DNA of 64,000 nt. It comes from Taxawa tesnikishii (nom. ined.) (taxonomy: Eukaryota; Ascomycota; Dothideomycetes; Dothideales). Below are positions 5,114-64,000 of this stretch, piece by piece. The stretch covers positions 186,001 to 250,000 of the forward strand of contig JAPDRO010000005.1 of the NCBI GenBank assembly GCA_030247885.1, written 5' to 3'. The notes below the pieces were generated by a model that was not told where the DNA came from, did not search any database, and worked only from the letters and a program-made list of their open reading frames with translations. Every line of letters starts with the position of its first letter. The first letter of the stretch is position 1. A program made the translations under genes and the position numbers.

Positions 5114-8100
5114 ATGACCTCGACAGCAACGTGCACGGTACAGGCGGTCGACACCTACGCGGCACCCTCAACCTTCTCGTCGCCCTACACCTACTCTGCC
5201 CACCAGTCGCTCCGCTCCGCCAGTCCCAGAACAACATCCGCAAGTCATGTCCGCACGGGTTCATCGGGGAACGTGACCAGACCGCTGAAGAGAAACACGA
5301 GTTCACGGGAAGATACAAAGATGAGCCAAGAGCAGGGCGGAGGAGCGAGCACGAGTGCGAGTGGTGGTGACCGAGCGAGTGATGCGTCGGGGTGGGCGTC
5401 GCTCAGCACACATTCATCTACCTGGCTAAAACGGTTGTCGTCGTTCTCGCAAGATTCTAGCCAGCCGTCAAGTCCGGGACCCGATTCAGCTTTTGTGTCA
5501 CATTCAAACGCCTCGGGCACCTTCTCACACACGGGCTCGACAACGCCCATGTTTCCTACGTCTACCCCACCACTGCCGCCCAACAAGCTCGTCAAACGCT
5601 CGTCGTCCGTCAAGAGCACCAACAGCTCACCTTTTCTGCCACTTTCCGGATCCAAGCTGCCTATTCCGGTTTTCAGACGACCTGCTACCAGTCACCAACG
5701 TAGTGCAACGCTTCAAGAAAGCCGGCTGAAGAGCGAAATCTCTGGTGTAAACACGCCAAGCCCAGGTTCACGTGTCCATGCCGACGAGGCGCAGTGGCGT
5801 AACTATTTCACACCCAGAGTTGCTGCTGACCGTGTTGGCAACATGAGGAGAAACTCAACAGGCATACCCAACCCCATCAAACGGGTTTATCCCGACCGAA
5901 AATACACACCTACCCTTATCTCAGCCGGACAACCTATCGCCTTTTCGAGAGTCGAGCTTGACGACGATGATGGAGACGATGATGCCCGGGCAAGGCTTCC
6001 ACAAGGATCAAAGGTAGTAACCCCTTTCTTCCCGTCTCCTCTGCCTGCTCGAGCTTTTGCCTCTGCCTCTACTATACCCGTTTCTTCTGAGCGTCTGGTG
6101 AGGAGTCGGCGAGAAACAGTATCTGGAGTAGTCCGGTCGAGTGTCGGGAAAGTCAAGGGTATGGTAGGAGGAAAGCAACCGGGGCAAGGTATTGCTGGGC
6201 AAGAGGGTCGGAGGAAGGAGGGATCGGATGTGGAATCGAAAGAGGAGGAGCCTCTAACAAGAAGTTCTTTCTCCTTCAGCGATCTTCTTTCCGAACCCCG
6301 CATGTGGAAGAGGCCATCTTCCACCCGGGTGCCGGACAGCAAGTATCGTCCTCGAGGAGGAAGAAGCCTCTCTGGCCCTGTGCCATCCATGGGCAACAGA
6401 CTCAGCAGTGGTTCTCGCGATGGTGAACGACCCGCGAAACGACGAGAGACCACAGCACCTCCTCTACCATCCTACACCCTACAACCGTCTCACACCGACG
6501 CATCCCCGACGCCCAGCGGTGCACTTCATGAACTCGGACCAACGTTACAATCGCCCGCTCCGGTCCTGACCCCTTCGCCCTTTGAGAACACATCTACGGT
6601 ACCGGCCCAACAAAGGGATGTTCCCATCTCGTCCATCGATCCCTCAACGTTTCCATCACCTATCTCTTCGGCCCGCCAATCTGTTTCGATATCAGAGATA
6701 GCATCTACATTGGGATCAGATAGCGAGGTAAGATCAGGGACAGACGATGGGCTCGACTCACAAAGTGAAACCGTCTATGATTCTCTTCAAACAAGAGCGA
6801 CAAGAAGCAGCTCTGGTAAACGCGGACCCGCCATTGAGACGATCTTTGACGAATCACCACCCCACTACGTGCACAGCAAGCCTACGATGCTGAAGGATTT
6901 CCTGCAACAAAGTTCTTTGTACGGACAAGAGAACATTGGAAGGCCACGGCACAGCATCATTGAAGAGGAGGAGAGTGTAGCCAGCACGCCCGCTCGATCA
7001 TTCCGCCATGATTCTTCCAACAGATCTTCACCAGCAGCACAGATGACAAAATCTCTTCAGCAAAGTACCATCCCGTCCTCGCCACCAGACGTACCAACTC
7101 TGGTCAAGCTTTCCACACCTGGACCCACAAACGGTTCGGATGATGACCAAGAAAGCTCCTGGTCGTTTGGAGAGGACGATGACGAGCCAACTAACCAACT
7201 GCCACTCAGAGCTCGCTTCCCGCATCTCGACGTCTCAGGAGATATGCTGAGCCCATATAGCAAAGCACAGGGCTCCAGTTCGGTCACTGCAACTCCACAG
7301 CGCAACGGAGACAAGGATGCCCGCAGCAGCATCTTCGACTGGTCTGAACAGTTATCCTTCGACAAGAGCCCCGGCAACAGATCTCCCCAAGGCCAAAAAC
7401 AGTTCACGGGAAGAAGGATGCAGAAAACAGGGGTAGCAGATCTGTTGGCCGACGTGCTCCTAGTGGGATTCATGCTCGTAGTCAGAGCGTGCCAAGTGCG
7501 CCAGAGGTTGACGGAAAGAAAAATGTGGTCACTAACAAGTTCGGAACTTGGGGTGTTGGCAGCAAAGGCGTCACAGAAGACTGGAACGAAGATTTCGACT
7601 TTGAAGAGCCACAGGTCCCCGTACCTGTAATGGGACCTGGAGGTGAGAAGAGATTGGACAGTGGGGTAATGTTTGTACCGAAATCCATCCAGGAACAACA
7701 GACGAATGTGCTTGCCAACATCACTCTCCTCCGAGATTGGGGTTTGCTTATCGAAGAATTGAAAGAGTTGAGGACACGAGCGGCGGCGCTGAATCTACTC
7801 GACGGACCGAATGAGAAGACGTGGGACGAGGTGGACGCTATGATCGATCTTGCTGATCAGGAATCGGACGACATTACTCTCGACCCTCGCTACACACCTC
7901 CTTCCTCACCTACCTTCGATTTCGATGAATTTGAGGAGGCTTTGTCAGGCATCTCACCCAGACCCAGGCCAAAACTACCTGAGACTGTACCAGAGGAAGC
8001 GGCATTGCCTGGACCACATCCCGTTTATACCCACGGCGAGACTGATTTACCACGTACCGTCACTACTCCAACCCGGCCGAGAAAGGACTCTGAAGCCGTG

Positions 8101-8484: not shown

Positions 8485-11313
8485 AGGCACCGTACGATCA
8501 ACGGCCTCTCTTGGAGATGAACAGTCGACATCTCCCATTTTGTTCCCTTTGCACTACGGGGCGTTCTCAGACGCCCTCTGTACTTCTAATGTTTCATGGG
8601 ACGACATTGTCGCTTTCAGTGGGCGCTCGCCTACTTTTTCGTTCGGCGATGCGAGACTGGAATACGGCAGGGAATAAAACCCAGCCGATCTCGCGCAAGC
8701 AGAAAATTTCTCCTCCGTATACACAGAAAAGCCTTTCGTTTTATCTTCCATCTGCACAATAGATTCCTTCTGTTGGGCTACGCATGACCGGTGGGAGAAG
8801 GGGGAAATCTGTGGGATTGAGCGGTTTTGGGCTGTACTACGTGTTGCGTGGTTCTACTTCTTTCACCATTGGGAAACGGTCTCTCAAAACAAAAGAAGGG
8901 CATGTCTCTCGTGTTCGGGACGAGCGGGTGTTGATTTTTCCCTCTGAAGTTTTTTCTTTTCCTTCAAGAGTCCTCTGCATAGCGATGTTCCTTTTTTCTT
9001 TCAACTCCTTCACGGCATATACTGTAGCATAGATCTGCAGCAGCGTTCTAACGTTAACTACAAACGCATCGAGCATACTCTCTTCCGAATCAAACGCTGC
9101 ATCTCCGTTCTGATTTGTTGTGAATTCCATGCAACATGAACGGAGCATCAAAACTCCGAACGTACCGGTCTGCCAGCTCAGCATCGACTGGAGTGCTTGT
9201 CTCCTCCGCACCGTCTATCTCTCCTTGGCAAACCTGTGGACGCGTAGTACCACCGTTCCGTCAGCCGAGCGGGGCGTCCTTCGAAGTCACCGATACACCT
9301 GGTTGAACTTGCTTAGTTGCAGCCTCAGCCGGATCCTGCTCTGCCCTACAAACCAAGGCAACGCCTCTGGCCACGGATCGAGTAACCCAAACCTCGCACC
9401 GATGGCGCCAGCAAACCACGTCAGCACGTGTTGACTCGGGAAACAACCCCAAGGGATCCCCAACCAATGCGGATTCTCGTCCGAGTCAAGATTCCGTTGA
9501 TTGGCGCTGCTGCTGTCTCAGATTTCGTCGTGGCCACACAAGCATGCGGAATCCGAACCCCCCTCCCCAAAAGAGCTATCGTGCATGTGAATGGTTGGAC
9601 TGTTCACTGAGTTTTGTCATCCGTTGCGTGGTGCTGAAGGGCGGGCAGATGGGGAAAGCAACGAAGATGGGGAAGTAACGAACACGGGCACGCCATGGCT
9701 TGAGCTGGTGTTCAACGCATGATGGTGCCGAGAGCTACCATTTTTGTGCTGGAAGCAGAGTTTCGATGCGCGATAATGAGGGGGAGAGCAGTTGGACGTG
9801 AAACGGTCCGGTAAGCTGTGAAGTGGAGTGGATGGACATGAGCATTGCGTGAGTATGTCTCGGCTTTCCCCATACCCGTCTTGGCACGGTGGTGAATGTC
9901 AGGGTTATGGATAACAGGTTGAGCAAGGGGCTGAGATGTGTTCTCGACTGCGGTGTGCTCGTCCGCGGAGTACTCGTCCGCGGAGGCACCCTTGTTTCTC
10001 CACTGAGGAAGATGCGATGAGTGGAGACCATGGACCGCTGTTTTTCGGAGACCTGCCGTCCATGGATTTGGTCGTTCTCGATGTTGACAATGTAACAGAC
10101 GGCGTCTTTGGGTTACGCCAGCCTCTTATGTTGTCTGCACCAGACACTGTCTACGATGCCTGCACATCTTGTTCCCTTGCGGAAGGAGCCCATTTTGAAG
10201 ACCGGTTTAGGGGTAGGTAGTCAGTCGACGGAGCCCCTTCTTCTTCCCTCGATGCGCCGATATTCGAAGGCAGACATGTGTGTATCCATTGCTGGTCCTG
10301 CCAATGCAGAACGTTGGGTTGAGCCCGAACGAACGAAGCAGGCTATAAACGTTCTCCTCCCGTCTGCGCTATGGAGGACAGTGAGTGCTAGCGTGACCGT
10401 ATTTCACTGCGACAACTATATCCACGCTGACCAACTCTGACACCTTCACACGTCAAATGCGGCAGCTTCGAGATGGAATCCTCTTTGACGACCACTTGAC
10501 GGGCGATGAATCAACCGATGAAAGTCAGCCTAGTGAAATAGGCTGTAAGGTGCCCTGCAGACTTGCATCATAAACAGCGGTGGACGCTGGCGTCAACGGT
10601 ATCTCTCTACCATAATTACAACTGCACCGAGTAAGATTGATAGACATGCGGGATGTGAAACAGCGATCGAGTCTCGCCTATTTCAATTTCATCCAACGCT
10701 TCTTATATTGTAGACTGTATCGGCTCGTGCAATGGTCAAACCAAGTGCTGCATATCATCATAAACTGCTTTCGCTCTGGTTGATCCGCTCGCCAGCATTG
10801 GACAGGAAATTCCATCCAATCCATCGCCAATACAGAAGGTCAATAGAGCACGGAGAGTGCAGACAATTGAAGTTTAACCTCTTGTGAGGGCCAACTTCCT
10901 CATCAGGCCTGCTGCAGAGCTGGTAACAGAGTCCTAGCCCAGCTGCAAAGATTGTCCGGAACCCCTTGGTCGAGCACTGTGGACTGAGAAGTCGTGCATG
11001 GTGTGGCCTCGTTGAGGTAGTCGAGGACGTTCTCGTTCACTCTTCTGAAATCCGAAGCCTCGAGAGATATGAGCCACGGGGACGGAGATCAGACCCTCAC
11101 AGCTCAGGTTGAGTAGAGGAACAAAAGCTCCTGAAGAGTTCCAGGTAGGCCATCAAGGATCTCGGTTGTGGTAAACTGACAAGTCCATGTTGTATCCGTA
11201 TGTGGTGGGAACGTACTTTCTGTCCGTACCCTCATCTTGAAATCCAGATCACCTCTTCGGCATAGGCGCTCGCTCAGTCGCCGGAATTTCCCTCCCACTC
11301 GTGTCCTTCAGAC
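8485..11313. other. 2.8-kb gap between convergent genes, no gene seen
   Basis: Lies between the stops of the Ser/Pro-rich gene (plus) and the DeSI gene (minus). Short open frames on both strands have no recognisable domain. Contains a 12-bp unit CTCGTCCGCGGA repeated at 9958 and 9973. The part next to 11313 should be the 3' untranslated region of the DeSI gene. A non-coding transcript cannot be excluded. Confidence 0.55.
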
Positions 11314-44114: not shown

Positions 44115-44148
44115 CAAGGGTCGAGGGTCAAGGGTCAAGGGTCAAGGG
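44115..44148. repeat. GGGTCAA heptamer repeat
   Basis: About four GGGTCAA units, one with a single change, lie 280 nt upstream of the CSC1-like start codon. Confidence 0.85.
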
Positions 44149-44425
44149 GCTTTCAGCCACGCACTCTTCCAAGATTTGTTTACGCCAGTGCGTCATCTCT
44201 GCGGCAGGGAAGTGACGATCACCGCCCATCTGTACTGGCTCATAACCTCCTTCCAACCGCCCCAATCCCAATCCGAATCGCAGCTCATCATCGTTGGCTC
44301 GCGTGCAGCGATCGACTACAATACATACATCCTTGACACCCATCACAGCTGCGCATCCTTCTCCCCGCGCATCTCCTATACAACACATCACAACACCTAT
44401 TTTGGGGTCAAGAGGCGTCGCAATA

Positions 44426-47249
44426 ATGGCTTCTGTTGCGGACGCCACTATCAAAAAGGCCACCAGGGTCGTTGCACGCCAAATCGCTGTACGTACATTG
44501 AGCTCTACTGATCCTTTGGCCCGCTCTAACACAGAATCCTCCAGAATCAAAGCAACGACGCCAACGTTGGCTCCTCCCAAACCTCCAGCAAGAACACCAA
44601 CTCGGCCTCGAGCATTGTCACTACCCTTGTCCCTGTCGCCGCCGTTGCTGCTATCTGGCTTGTCGCCTTCCTCGTCCTGAGACGCATCTTCCCACGGAAG
44701 TACTACCCAAGGTCTTTCTTGGGCAGTTTGCGAACCAAGTAGGTCATCTCCGATATCTTTCTCCAACAAACGACTGACAAGACGACAGTGAGCGCTCACC
44801 AACGCTGTCCAAAACGCTGTTCGGCTGGATCGGTGGCTTCTACAACATTCCAGACACCTATGTCCTCAACCACCACAGTCTTGATGGCTTCCTGTTTCTT
44901 CGCCTGCTCAAGATCTCCGTCATCATCTGTCTCGTCGGGTGCTGCATCACCTTCCCTGTCCTGTTCCCCATCAACGCGACGGGAGGCAATGGCATGAAAC
45001 AGCTTGACATCCTGACTTTCTCCAACGTCGCGAACAAATGGAAGCACTTTGCAACCGCAGGATGTGCATGGATCTTCTTCGGGTTTGTCATCTACATGAT
45101 CACCAGGGAGAGCATCTTCTACATCAACCTCCGCCAAGCATACCTGCTCTCTCCATACTATGCCAGCCGTCTGTCGTCAAGGACCGTCCTCTTCACTTCA
45201 GTCCCGGAAGACTACCAGAACGAGGCCAAGATCCGTAGCATGCTGGGGGATTCGGTCAGACGCGTATGGGTCGCGACTGACTGCAAGGACCTGGAAGACG
45301 ATGTCAAAGACCGTGACAAGGTTGCTATGAAGCTGGAAGCCGCCGAGACCAAGCTCATTCGCGCAGCAAATGGCACTCGCCTGAAGGCTGAGAAGAAGAA
45401 CGGCGGTCGTCGCACCTCTGAGGCTGAAGAAGCCGCCATCGGACACAACGGCGAGTCCGGTTCTGTCGCTGCTCGTTACCTGGATCGCAAGAAAAGACCT
45501 ACTCATCGCCTCAAGCCATTGATCGGCAAGAAGGTGGACACGATCGACTGGTGCCGCGCCGAGCTTCAAAGGCTCATTCCCAAGGTTGATCAAGCCCAAG
45601 CCAAGCACAGGTCTCTTGATGTCAAGAAGGTCGGCGCTGTGTTCGTCGAGTTCGACACGCTCAACGCGGCCCAGTCTGCCTATCAGAGCCTCACCCACCA
45701 CCAGGTCCTGCACATGGCACCTCGCTACACTGGCATGAACCCTAGTGAAATCATCTGGAGCAACCTCAGGATCAAGTGGTGGGAAAGAGTCGTCCGCCAG
45801 ATCTTGACTACTTCCTTCGTCGTCGCGCTCATCATCTTCTGGTCCATCCCGGTTGCTGTCATCGGTGCAATCTCCAATGTCAACTACCTTACCAACAGAC
45901 TGCCTTGGCTGGATTTCATCTACAACCTTCCCAGTTTCCTGCTTGGTCTTATCACGGGTCTGCTACCAGTGGTTCTCTTGGCCGCTCTCATGTCTCTTCT
46001 GCCCATCATCCTTCGCCTCATGGCAAAGCTCGGAGGTGATCCAACCAGGTCCGCCGTTGAGCTTACGGTCCAGAACTCCTACTTTGGATTCCAAGTTGTC
46101 CAAGTCTTCCTGGTGGCCACGATAGGTTCTGCGGCCTCCTCCGCCGTCACCCAGATTATCCAAAACCCCAGTAGCGCTCCGTCTCTCCTTGCAACGCAGA
46201 TCCCCAAGGCCTCCAACTTCTACCTGTCTTACTTCATCTTGCAAGGCCTCGGTGTTGTTTCGAGCATGCTGGTTGGTATCACCGGTCTGGTTGTCTTTAT
46301 CATCTTGGGCAAGCTTCTCGACAAGACTCCTCGCAAGATGTACAAGCGCTGGATCAACCTCGCGGGCGTTGGCTGGGGCACGGTCTTCCCAGTCTACACT
46401 AACCTGCTCGTTATCGGTAAGTACATGCCGCAGCAATCTATTACACAAACACATGTACTGACTTGAACAGCGATCTGCTACTCTTGCATTGCGCCCCTCG
46501 TCTTGCTCTTCGCAGCCATTGGCCTTTACTTCTTCTACCTGGCTTACCGCTACAACTTCCTCTTCGTCAACAACGCTAACATCAACACCGGAGGCCGTGT
46601 CTATCCTCGGGCTTTGCAACAGCTCTTTGTCGGACTGTACGTTGCAGAGGTCTGTCTGATCGGCCTCTTCGCCATTGCCACTGCATCTTCCATTGGCGCT
46701 CTCGGCCCACTGATAATGATGATCATCTTCCTGATCTTCACCGTCCTGTACCACGCTTCGCTCAACGCCGCCTTGGATCCTCTTATCAACTACCTCCCCA
46801 AGTCTCTTGAGGCCGAGGAGAGGCACCTCATGGACGCTGAGAAGGCAGAGGAAGGCGAGCTGAACGGTCGTGAGAAGGGTACTGGCCATGCTCTGGGTGA
46901 CAAGCTCGGACCCGCCCCACACAAGAAGCCCAACCTCTTCACCAAATGGCTGCGCCCTGACATCTACTGCGACTACGCCACGATGCGTCGCCTGGTGCCC
47001 AAGGACATCGCCATCCGTTACGAGCCAGAGGTGGAGGAGAACGCATATTACAACCCAGCAATCACATCGCAGACCCCTCTCCTATGGATCCCTCGTGACC
47101 CAGTCGGCGTGAGCAGACAGGAGGTCGACGACACCCAGAAGGTCATCCCGATCACGGACGAGGGCGCATTCCTGGACGAGAAGAACAAGATCGTCTGGGA
47201 TGCAGAGGATGGACGCCCGCCGATCTACCAGGAGCCTGTCTACTATTGA
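44426..47249 (+). CDS. CSC1/TMEM63 (DUF221) osmosensitive cation channel
   Basis: Four exons: 44426-44488, 44545-44738, 44789-46416 and 46471-47249, with introns of 56, 50 and 54 nt. The product has 887 residues with no frame break. Order of parts: an N-terminal membrane segment (TLVPVAAVAAIWLVAFLVL), the conserved RSPTLSKTLFGWIGGFYNIPDT region, two more segments, a large cytosolic domain (about residues 200-370) with an RRM-like fold starting SSRTVLFTSVPEDY, then DUF221 proper with WSIPVAVIGAISN and about seven further membrane segments, and a polar C-terminus. PTRSAVELTVQNSYFGFQV is a typical pore-proximal block. Family members are calcium-permeable channels gated by membrane tension or hyperosmotic stress. 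The membrane in which it acts (plasma or internal) is not shown. Confidence 0.93.
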
Positions 47250-54785: not shown

Positions 54786-56297
54786 ATGGCGCCAAAGAAA
54801 GCAGTCAAGGAGGAGAAGATCCTGCTCGGCAGACCGGGCAACAACCTGAAGAGTGGTATCGTATGTAGGGATATGGACGCATCAGCCTGTAAAGAAAGGA
54901 CATCGCTGACAGCCACAGGTCGGACTGGCCAACGTCGGCAAGTCGACACTCTTCCAGGCCATCACCAAGTCGTCTCTGGGTAACCCGGCGAACTTCCCCT
55001 ATGCCACTATCGATCCCGAAGAGGCTCGTGTCATCGTCCCTGATGAGCGATTCGACTGGCTCTGCGAACACTACAAGCCAAAATCCCAAGTCCCCGCCCA
55101 CTTGACCATCTACGACATTGCTGGGTTGACCCGTGGAGCGTCCACCGGTGCCGGTCTTGGAAACGCCTTCTTGTCCCACATCCGTGCTGTCGATGCCATC
55201 TTCCAGGTCGTCCGATGCTTCGACGATGCTGAGATTATCCATGTCGAAGGTGATGTCGATCCCGTCCGTGATCTGACCATCATCAGCGAGGAGTTGCGGA
55301 TCAAGGATATCGAGTTTGTCGAGAAGGCACTCGAGAGCTTGAGCAAGCAGACAAGGCGCGGCGGACAGTCTCTTGAGATGAAGAAGCTGAAGGAGGAGCA
55401 AGCTACTGTGGAGAAGATTTTGGATCTGCTCAAGTCGGGCAAGGACGTGCGCAAGGGAGAGTGGGGACCAAAGGAGGTACGTTACGCGTCTTTGCCATTC
55501 ATTCTGCAAGATCTCCATTCTATGATGATCAAGAGCGACTGCTCTATAATCCCAGCTCTTCGAACGCCTCACCAATTCAACGCAGAGGTCGTCTTGAGAA
55601 CACGTCCCATCTGACTTTCCAGTCAACCCTTTACTCGTTCCCTTGCATGCAACATTGTTCTGCATACGCTGACAAGAAGATGAACAGGTTGAGGTTATCA
55701 ACCCTCTCTTCCTGCTCACGGCCAAGCCCGTTGTCTATCTTGTCAACCTCAGCGAGAAGGACTACATCCGTCAGAAGAACAAGTACCTGCCCAAGATCGC
55801 TGCATGGGTCAAGGAGCACGCCGAGGGTGACCCAATCATCCCCATCTCCGTCTCCTTCGAGGAGCGTCTCACCCGGTTCGAAACCGAGAAGGAGGCCGAT
55901 GAGGAGTGCAAGAACCTTGGCACCAAGTCTGCCCTTCCCAAGGCCATCACCACTATGCGCAAGGCCTTGAATCTCGGCAGCTTCTTCACGACGGGTACCG
56001 ACGAAGTCCGTCAATGGACTATCCGCAAGGGCACCAAGGCGCCCGCGGCTGCTGGTGTGATTCACACTGACTTTGAGAAGACCTTCATTCAGGCCATTGT
56101 GTACAACTACAGCGTGCTGAAGGAGGAGGGAGACGAAGCCACTGTCAAGGCAAAGGGCAAGATCATGACCAAGGGCAAGGACTATGTGGTAGAAGACGGT
56201 AAGTTACTCCAGTTTGGGTGGATCGTCTCGTTCCACAGGCTAACAGTATGCCACAGGCGATATCCTGCTCATCAAGGCAGGAGCTGCCAAGTCATGA
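54786..56297 (+). CDS. OLA1: OLA1/YchF Obg-like ATPase
   Basis: Four exons: 54786-54860, 54919-55476, 55688-56198 and 56257-56297. The product has 394 residues, the exact usual length in fungi. P-loop GLANVGKST at about residue 27, switch region NFPYATIDPEE, G3 motif DIAGLTRGAS, and the G4 position has NLSE instead of NKxD (VVYLVNLSEKD), which in this family gives ATP preference over GTP. A TGS domain ends the protein (GVIHTDFEKTFIQAIVYNY). The enzyme associates with ribosomes and responds to oxidative stress in other eukaryotes. Introns 1 and 3 are 58 nt each, but intron 2 (55477-55687) is 211 nt, far longer than any other in the window. Confidence 0.97.
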
Positions 56298-59363: not shown

Positions 59364-61412
59364 ATGGGCCGTACTCAGTCTCGGGCAAACTCCCGTGCCC
59401 CTTCTACCGGACTTGCTCCAGATTCTGCGGCCGACACACAGCAGCGCCGTGAGAAGAAGCCTTATCAGGCCAACAAGGCTTCGTACAAAGCCCGTTTCGA
59501 ACTTGTCAAAGAGAAAAGAGCACGCATGAAGATCAAAGTTTGTTATTCTTGTTTCCTTCGATTGGACTCCACTTAACTTTTTGATTTGCTTAGGAGAGAG
59601 TCGGACGTGAACCACCAGCCGGATACACCTACCTTCCCATCGGTTATGCTGATTTGACAAAGCGCTGCAAAGAGCTATCAAGGAAGTACAATGCCGAAGT
59701 TTCAGCCATATCCGTAAGTCCAGGGCAATAAATCTCACGTGTATCACTCCGGAGCTACTTTGCTACATCGTTTCAATTGACGGCTCTGGATTGCGCCTTG
59801 CTGCTGCATGCTGTTTTCATTGCGAGGCTAACACGCAGCTAGATCGACGCCGGAGGCTACGTGCATGATCCAAACAAGATTTCGCATCACATCTATCGAA
59901 CCGGCCATCACTTTCGTACTGATATCTTTGATGAAGCCTGCGAGTGGGTGGGCTATCACACAAACGACGATGGCAGGTTGATCAAGACCAAGGGACGTGG
60001 CACGATGACCGAGGGTGCAACGGGCACACGCATGTTCAATGCAGCAGTCGAGCGTTCTATGGGCCGGCACAAGAAGGAAAGCGCAGAGACTGTCAAGGAT
60101 GCCATTCGCGAACTTTTCCCAGAGATCCCCAACGAGGATGTTGAACAGATCTATGCTCGAGCCTGGGATCCGAAGGTGAGTCACGCAGGCGAGTTTATTC
60201 AACAGGTTGGTTGACTCTGTACAGAACAAGACGAACGTGGGTCACGCAAAGGGAGAATCATTGGGAAGACGCGTGCAGTTGGCGACCATTGCGCACCTCA
60301 GGCATCAGTACACCGACTATGACAAGCTCTTCGACCTCAGGATGTTCAATCGTGACGAGATCAGAAGTATTGTTGAGCCATTCGTGTTGCAGAAGATGAA
60401 GGAATGGCGTGGCGAGGCAGGTGGCTTCGAGGAGGAAGAGGTGCTCCGCGAGGTCATTTACATTGATGACGACGACGACGAAGACAGTCCACCAGGAAGA
60501 GACCTCAGCAGTATGGATATCCAGAGCCCCACCGAATCAGATGATGACGTGCAGTTCATCTCACGACGGATTCGCCCCGACGAGTTGTCCGACGAACCCA
60601 ACGACCCAACCTGGCTGCGCAAGCATGTTGGTTCGTCCCGGAATGAGCTACACCAGCGTCGCACTCCAGTGCGCAGCGAGCGCACACAACCGACAAGAGA
60701 GCGATATGTGGACATATCTCAGCCAGCGATGGAGGCTGCTTCCGCGGATCAACACGTCCACCAATACACCCACCTCAAGACTGGTGACCACAGCGTTCCC
60801 GATCCCACCCGTCCTGTTTACCATGAACGGTTTATGCAGGCGCCCTACACCAACCCTCCTTCCTATCAAGAGGCGCCACAGCACCACCGCAAAGAAGTGG
60901 CAGATGGCGCCGACCGTGTCTCTATCCAAGTCCAGAACGGGCAGCCACCACCAGATCATTTCATGATGGACGGCGTGGTCTACAAGAGAGTAAGTCTAGA
61001 CGTCCCGAGTGCAATTGATTATGCTGATAACCTCAGGCTCCTGTGAACTGGGACATGTACCCACCACCAGTCGCGGGCCTGCCAGCCCGCAGCCAGCCAC
61101 GCTACGGCCAACAGGACCCTCTATACCGCCTCCCGGTCTACGGCAAGGCGCTGCCGTCAGCAGTCCCACAATTTGGCTCGCCGCCCGTATACGACCAGCC
61201 CCTTCCCTCCATCGAGGGCCCATACGGAGCCGCACCAAGGCGGCCGTTCAAGGGAAGCAGCCGGAGGTCATCGACCTCACAGGTCCATCCCCCGCAAGCA
61301 GCCTGTCTTTGGACAGCCTGCGTACCCGCAGGTGGCGCGTCCGCTGGCGCAAATGACGCCGGCGCCGGTGCATGGCGCCCCTGCGTCTGTCCAGCAAATC
61401 TCGCGGCGCTGA
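59364..61412 (+). CDS. DUF2293-domain protein
   Basis: Five exons: 59364-59537, 59594-59713, 59843-60175, 60225-60989 and 61037-61412, with introns of 56, 129, 49 and 47 nt. About 589 residues if two bases are missing; the sum is then an exact multiple of three. The conserved DUF2293 core spans exons 3-4 (about residues 170-260): KDAIRELFPEIPNEDVEQIY, NVGHAKGESLGRRVQLATIA and HLRHQYTDYDKLFDLRMF. An acidic stretch (YIDDDDDEDS) and a Pro/Gln-rich tail follow. In the last exon the frame passes from RRPFKG to KQPEVIDLTGPSP at GGG 61251-61253, then to RKQPVFGQPAYPQVARP at the C5 run near 61286-61290, ending QQISRR. EVIDLT resembles a SUMO-interacting motif. The function of the domain is unknown. 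Confidence 0.85.
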
Positions 61413-62218: not shown

Positions 62219-62222
62219 AAAA
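62219..62222 (-). terminator. T4 Pol III terminator at the tRNA 3' end
   Basis: On the minus strand the mature tRNA end GGGC is followed by TTTT, of which the first T is the discriminator base. Four Ts are the minimal Pol III terminator. Confidence 0.6.
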
Positions 62223-62377
62223 GCCCAACGCGGGGTCGAACTACAGACATGTTAGTACATGTAGTTCGCTGGAAGGGCTGGCACGTAACGTACCCCGCAA
62301 CCTTCAGATGAATCTCTGCATTCATGCGTTGATGATATGTTAAGAGTCTCACGCTCTACCGATTGAGCTAGCCCGGC
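62222..62377 (-). tRNA. tRNA-Lys(CUU) with two insertions
   Basis: On the minus strand, the 5' exon 62377-62341 contains the A box (TAGCTCAATCGG) and anticodon CTT. A 31-nt intron (62340-62310) sits at the canonical 37/38 position. The exon 62309-62294 gives the 3' anticodon stem, variable loop AGGTT and T-stem strand GCGGG. Then a 53-nt insertion (62293-62241) begins GTACGT, contains TACTAAC and ends TGTAG. The last exon 62240-62222 starts TTCGACC (T-loop and B box) and ends GTTGGGCT. Exons sum to 72 nt, one less than the standard 73; the missing base is a C in the T-loop/T-stem C run. Acceptor pairs G1-C72 and so on fit except G4-G69; G28-G42 in the anticodon stem is also mismatched. The two mismatches and the second insertion leave some chance that it is a pseudogene. 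Confidence 0.8.
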
Positions 62378-63844: not shown

Positions 63845-64000
63845 ATGGCTACAGACGGCGTGAACGGCGCAAATGGCCATGCCGATGGCTCTTTGGCAGG
63901 GGACGACATCCCAGTGTACGACGCCCTGCTTGTTGGCGCTGGATTCGGTTCCTACACTACCCTTATGAGGTGAGAGACTCTGTTCTGGTCCCTGTGACTA
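63845..64000 (+). CDS. Flavin-containing (Baeyer-Villiger type) monooxygenase, 5' part only
   Basis: Only exon 1 is in the window: 63845-63969, followed by donor GTGAGA at 63970. It encodes 41 residues and part of a codon. A Gly/Asp-rich N-terminus precedes IPVYDALLVGAGFGSYTTLM, the start of an FAD-binding Rossmann fold as in fungal cyclohexanone-monooxygenase-like enzymes. The glycine motif reads GAGFGS, with Ser at the third glycine of GxGxxG. This is unusual but only 41 residues can be judged. Substrate unknown. Confidence 0.7.

Follow-up and report, generated by a model that had tools for sequence, protein, structure and literature searches.

A tRNA-Lys(CUU)-like gene in a fungal genome with a putative mRNA-type intron in its T loop

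Spliceosome-type introns occur in the U6 genes of fungi beyond fission yeast. In fission yeast itself, the U6 snRNA gene has an mRNA-type intron that is thought to be due to reverse splicing, as outlined in PMC10484740. The closeness of U6 to the spliceosome offers an explanation for mRNA-type introns in that Pol III gene. In the account given by PMC4090602, insertions in the D and T arms of eukaryotic tRNA genes mostly affect a single gene among many synonymous ones and are presumed to mark pseudogenes, with exceptions in nucleomorphs and a red alga, where removal is confirmed for some; the same source describes BHB recognition for the tRNA introns of C. merolae. In searches of open-licence PMC papers we saw no report of a nuclear tRNA gene with a spliceosomal intron, a scope that leaves the absence unproven. 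Furthermore, as the detection of non-canonical introns in tRNAscan-SE 2.0 is described for its archaeal search model (PMC8450103), fungal genes of such a kind may be overlooked.

Here we describe a tRNA-Lys(CUU)-like gene with two insertions, found on the minus strand of a fungal window of 64,000 bases (the whole stretch of DNA analysed; 54.6% GC, no N). Re-reading of the sequence reproduced the coordinates, the two inserts, the splice signals and the CTT anticodon exactly as a prior sequence-only reading had given them. The features, all on the minus strand and listed in the direction of the gene with the type of evidence in brackets, are as follows:

62222-62377, minus: whole tRNA-Lys(CUU)-like gene, interrupted twice and running from G1 at 62377 to T73 at 62222 (sequence, Rfam tRNA model, ARAGORN on the joined sequence)
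62359-62370, minus: A box, TAGCTCAATCGG (pattern match)
62342-62344, minus: anticodon CTT (sequence)
62310-62340, minus: 31-nt anticodon-loop intron at the canonical position, TSEN type by position (sequence)
62294-62298, minus: 5' strand of the T stem, GCGGG (sequence, Rfam alignment)
62241-62293, minus: 53-nt insert between tRNA positions 53 and 54, bearing the signals of an mRNA-type intron (sequence, pattern statistics)
62288-62293, minus: 5' splice site, GTACGT (sequence)
62260-62268, minus: CGAACTACA, 5' arm of a 9-bp hairpin in the insert (inverted-repeat analysis)
62251-62257, minus: branch sequence TACTAAC, whose branch A precedes the insert's end by 11 nt (sequence)
62237-62245, minus: TGTAGTTCG, 3' arm of the 9-bp hairpin, spanning the 3' splice site as well as TTCG from the T loop (inverted-repeat analysis)
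62241-62243, minus: 3' splice site, TAG (sequence)
62233-62241, minus: B box, GTTCGACCC, its first G supplied by the insert (pattern match)
62230-62240, minus: T loop TTCGAC (6 nt) and 3' strand of the T stem, CCCGC (sequence, Rfam alignment)
62219-62222, minus: TTTT including T73, a short possible Pol III stop (sequence)

A full cloverleaf with a CUU anticodon is recovered at this locus by two programs, in each case with qualification. A full-length alignment of the Rfam tRNA model (1-71) to 62222-62377 on the minus strand scores 19.7 bits, where the gathering score is 29, and accommodates a large anticodon-loop insert as well as a T loop of 59 nt, which an intact GCGGG/CCCGC stem closes. ARAGORN reports no tRNA gene in the raw window, also when introns of 0-150 are allowed; upon removal of the T-arm insert it calls tRNA-Lys(ctt) but sets the anticodon intron at 10 nt rather than 31 nt, and with both inserts removed it returns a plain tRNA-Lys(ctt). 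Its calls at lowered thresholds (274 and 623 on four test sequences) were noise and are left out. The gene also has the two elements of a type 2 Pol III promoter, an A box and a B box that match consensus and start 129 bases apart; the B box, which the sequence-only reading had considered intact, is so partly because the last G of the insert replaces G53 (GTTCGACCC, 62241-62233). Beyond the terminal TTTT, longer T runs lie about 45 bases further on (T5 at 62177-62173 and T6 at 62171-62166, minus strand). Introns removed by TSEN usually pair with the anticodon loop, and in predicted folds AGAG of the 31-nt intron is pairable with CTCT of that loop. The first intron, its position and the anticodon are as in canonical tRNA-Lys(CUU) genes with an anticodon-loop intron; the second intron, two stem mismatches and a 6-nt T loop are not. 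The head of a SINE was considered as another identity for the locus, and the full acceptor stem speaks against it.

The second insertion, between GCGGG and TTCGAC, reads GTACGT...TACTAAC-ATGTCTGTAG and has the sequence hallmarks of a U2-type intron in its GT..AG termini, 5' splice site, branch sequence, spacing and length. Its ends coincide exactly with a junction of the tRNA, where base 53 of the T stem meets base 54 of the T loop; the tRNA fixes this junction independently of the intron signals, with a one-base ambiguity given that G53 equals the insert's final base. Across the window the pattern GTRNGT..TACTAAC..YAG is absent from the plus strand and occurs once on the minus strand, as the insert itself, against an expectation of 0.045 per strand and a maximum of 2 in 200 dinucleotide shuffles; the GTACGT form was not seen in 100 shuffles. 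No 53-mer carrying GTRNGT, TACTAAC and YAG in place was found at 19.2 million shuffled positions, and relaxing the branch site to YTRAC yielded 52 in 19.2 million, or 2.7e-6 per position. As the loose pattern GTRNGT..YTRAC..YAG is by itself common (12 and 9 in the window versus 5.5 expected per strand), the weight rests on the perfect branch site together with the exact junction. These signals and this placement make it likely that the insert is, or once was, a spliceosomal intron, which supports the spliceosomal origin contained in one option of the sequence-only reading, that of an mRNA-type intron spliced from a Pol III transcript; the other options of that reading were a non-canonical tRNA intron and an insertion that killed the copy.

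To place the insert among its neighbours, we compared it with 11 introns of the same window, predicted by script (41781, 46417, 49078, 57225, 60176) or by eye (14967, 16821, 44489, 44739, 59538, 59714) and lacking transcript support; candidates at 7838-7897, 9048-9165 and 2700-2784 on the minus strand, as well as the 41736 start, were dropped as weak or alternative. The 11 are 46-125 nt long with a median of 56, so that the 53-nt insert is of ordinary size. GTACGT is present in one of them, TACTAAC in none, TACTGAC in two, and a TAG end in two, and the branch site of the insert is better than in all 11. The insert thus fits the class of short protein-gene introns in this stretch, but to call it exactly like them was, on these counts, too strong.

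Joining the tRNA across both insertions leaves G.G mismatches at 4:69 and 28:42 and a T loop of 6 nt. The sequence-only reading had called this product near-canonical, which is too generous: the cloverleaf is indeed recovered by ARAGORN, but the paired stems and 7-nt T loop of a mature tRNA-Lys(CUU) are broken by G4.G69, G28.G42 and a loop one base short. Relatives were sought with patterns from the gene: a 30-base pattern of its 5' half gave 0 matches in viral and 0 in prokaryote contigs, and a 19-base pattern gave two viral-contig loci and four prokaryote-contig loci, none fungal. Three of these served as controls for T-loop length, namely a tRNA-rich viral contig with 44 tRNAs (L002), used for the anticodon stem as well, and two from Clostridia with one tRNA-Lys(ctt) each (L003, L005); ARAGORN found no tRNA in the two from Woesearchaeota (L004, L006), nor did ARAGORN or Rfam in the remaining one (L001). 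All 46 of the 46 control tRNAs, none of them fungal, have a 7-nt T loop by ARAGORN, and the anticodon stem of the viral tRNA-Lys(CTT) is paired as TGAGA/TCTCA. The viral contig is 523,836 bases long, and its 44 tRNA genes were called in the 11,236 bases analysed (L002:522-11176), two of them tRNA-Lys(ctt).

Departures from a standard tRNA, as defined by pairing rules, general tRNA structure and the non-fungal controls, number three in 72 nt and all fall in structural features, suggesting relaxed constraint. Conversely, so small a number points to a gene that is young or remains under partial constraint, which counts against a decayed copy. tRNAs with mismatches can function, and the C missing from a C run in the T loop could be a sequencing error. 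The splice signals are all intact, as they would be under selection, but this says little either way, because about 0.7 changes would be expected in their 16 bases at the same rate.

The best explanation, to which we give about an even chance, is that of a decayed or decaying tRNA-Lys copy with an acquired mRNA-type intron. In this view a spliceosome-type intron of 53 nt would have entered the T loop of a fungal tRNA-Lys(CUU) gene copy between positions 53 and 54. Its probable source is an mRNA intron, and its probable route is either reverse splicing into the pre-tRNA with subsequent reverse transcription and recombination, or direct insertion into DNA. As the anticodon intron is still present, the acceptor RNA or gene would not yet have been spliced by TSEN. 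The A box, the B box and the T stem are all preserved at the locus, and Pol III may still be able to transcribe the gene; its product would be a poor tRNA at best, hence a decayed or decaying copy as the likeliest outcome. That an insertion had killed this copy was an option listed unweighed before, and it is now favoured by the two mismatches and the 6-nt T loop of the joined tRNA. That D- and T-arm insertions are mostly taken as pseudogenes in the account of PMC4090602 also speaks for this reading. With such pseudogenes the locus shares a single T-arm insertion and structural defects, and differs from them in that the inserted sequence is that of an ideal mRNA-type intron whose boundary falls exactly on the junction. 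With the nucleomorph and red algal tRNA genes of that account it shares a T-arm insertion and several introns per gene, although the nucleomorph introns are 3-24 nt long, use non-canonical sites and, as described there, are without mRNA-type signals (PMC4090602). Even if the gene is a dead copy, it would be a clean case of intron gain in which the gene sequence before insertion is known, and an mRNA-type intron in a tRNA gene would mean that RNAs remote from the spliceosome are also within reach of reverse splicing or intron insertion.

A working nuclear tRNA gene, in which one Pol III transcript is spliced by TSEN at 37/38 and by the spliceosome in the T loop, is unlikely, though the most probable of the alternatives. 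Both promoter boxes are intact, the B box being completed by the intron's own final G, every splice signal is at consensus, and fission yeast U6 provides a precedent of a Pol III RNA spliced by the spliceosome (PMC10484740). The parallel extends to the presence of an mRNA-type intron in a Pol III-made RNA, as that source describes it, and fails on two points: U6 is in the active centre of the spliceosome, which accounts for its exposure, whereas tRNA is not, and splicing of U6 is demonstrated, whereas the tRNA-Lys insert is a putative intron recognised from its sequence. Predicted folding of the precursor bears on this reading from both sides. The T stem is able to close around the insert, which in the cloverleaf-enforced fold (-44.1 kcal/mol) forms hairpins stacked on it, and the branch site is exposed, with an unpaired probability of 0.77. 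Against this, the unconstrained minimum-energy fold (-50.9 kcal/mol) lacks the T stem, the enforced one being 6.8 kcal/mol costlier, and the 3' splice site is almost entirely paired (0.02 unpaired), although 2/11 predicted introns, folded with 80-nt flanks, hide theirs equally; the 5' splice site is mostly paired (0.19 unpaired). The predicted pairing of the splice sites leans slightly against efficient splicing, and the two G.G mismatches and short T loop of the product count against a working gene. If the insert is spliced, the spliceosome would be able to act on a pre-tRNA, and a single tRNA would need TSEN and the spliceosome, two unrelated machines.

It is improbable that a chance insertion into a dead tRNA gene merely looks like an intron. 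Insertions in the D and T arms of eukaryotic tRNA genes are known and held to be pseudogenes (PMC4090602), weak intron-like patterns are common in the window, and the 9-bp inverted repeat across the 3' end of the insert, a length reached in 4/1000 shuffles, could reflect a fold-back copying error. What speaks against chance is the pattern frequency given above, which does not exceed 2.7e-6 per position even when the branch site is relaxed and is 0 in 19.2 million with TACTAAC. A slightly poorer chance is given to a Pol II transcript, with an untranslated exon or as a long non-coding RNA, whose spliceosomal intron happens to cross a dead tRNA gene. Introns in untranslated exons are frequent in such fungi, and a 208-aa stop-free frame of the minus strand terminates inside the insert. 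This frame, however, has no coding signal (-0.013 per codon versus 0.121 for the DUF2293 exon, which is itself in the training set), and both splice sites falling exactly at 53/54 would be a coincidence. Finally, membership of the insert in a new mobile, introner-like intron family that also struck a tRNA gene is the least probable reading: such elements occur in fungi according to PMC8476143, and the insert is identical to predicted intron 46417-46470 in 39/60 alignment columns, a score that first looked strong (0/2000 simple shuffles) but is reached by 8, 14, 15 and 87 of 3000 dinucleotide shuffles under four scorings and by 17, 23, 32 and 98 of 400 after correction for the best of 11, so that the likeness is not robust, and neither a near-identical nor a longer copy lies in the 64-kb window (best local score 27, against 21-33 in 40 shuffles).

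The tRNA-Lys(CUU)-like gene is flanked on one side by a plus-strand DUF2293 gene, whose last ORF ends at 61046. On the other side a plus-strand gene has its apparent ATG at 63845, judged by eye, and its first residues in the window (63845-64000) resemble a FAD-binding motif, VGAGFGS, also by eye. Pfam matches in the window include Fung_rhodopsin, Fungal_trans and DUF2293, and the single Rfam match is the Aspergillus snoRNA Afu_304 (RF01511) at 55518-55618 on the plus strand, with 68 bits; it lies opposite an ORF of the minus strand (54805-55734) for which Pfam gave no match. By these matches the DNA looks like that of a filamentous ascomycete. An RSN1_7TM/PHM7 gene is split by an in-frame stop into ORFs 44778-46463 and 46467-47246, and looks ordinary because the stop falls inside predicted intron 46417-46470 (GTAAGT..TACTGAC..CAG). 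Immediately upstream of this gene, at 44117-44150, short tandem GGGTCAA units are visible by eye.
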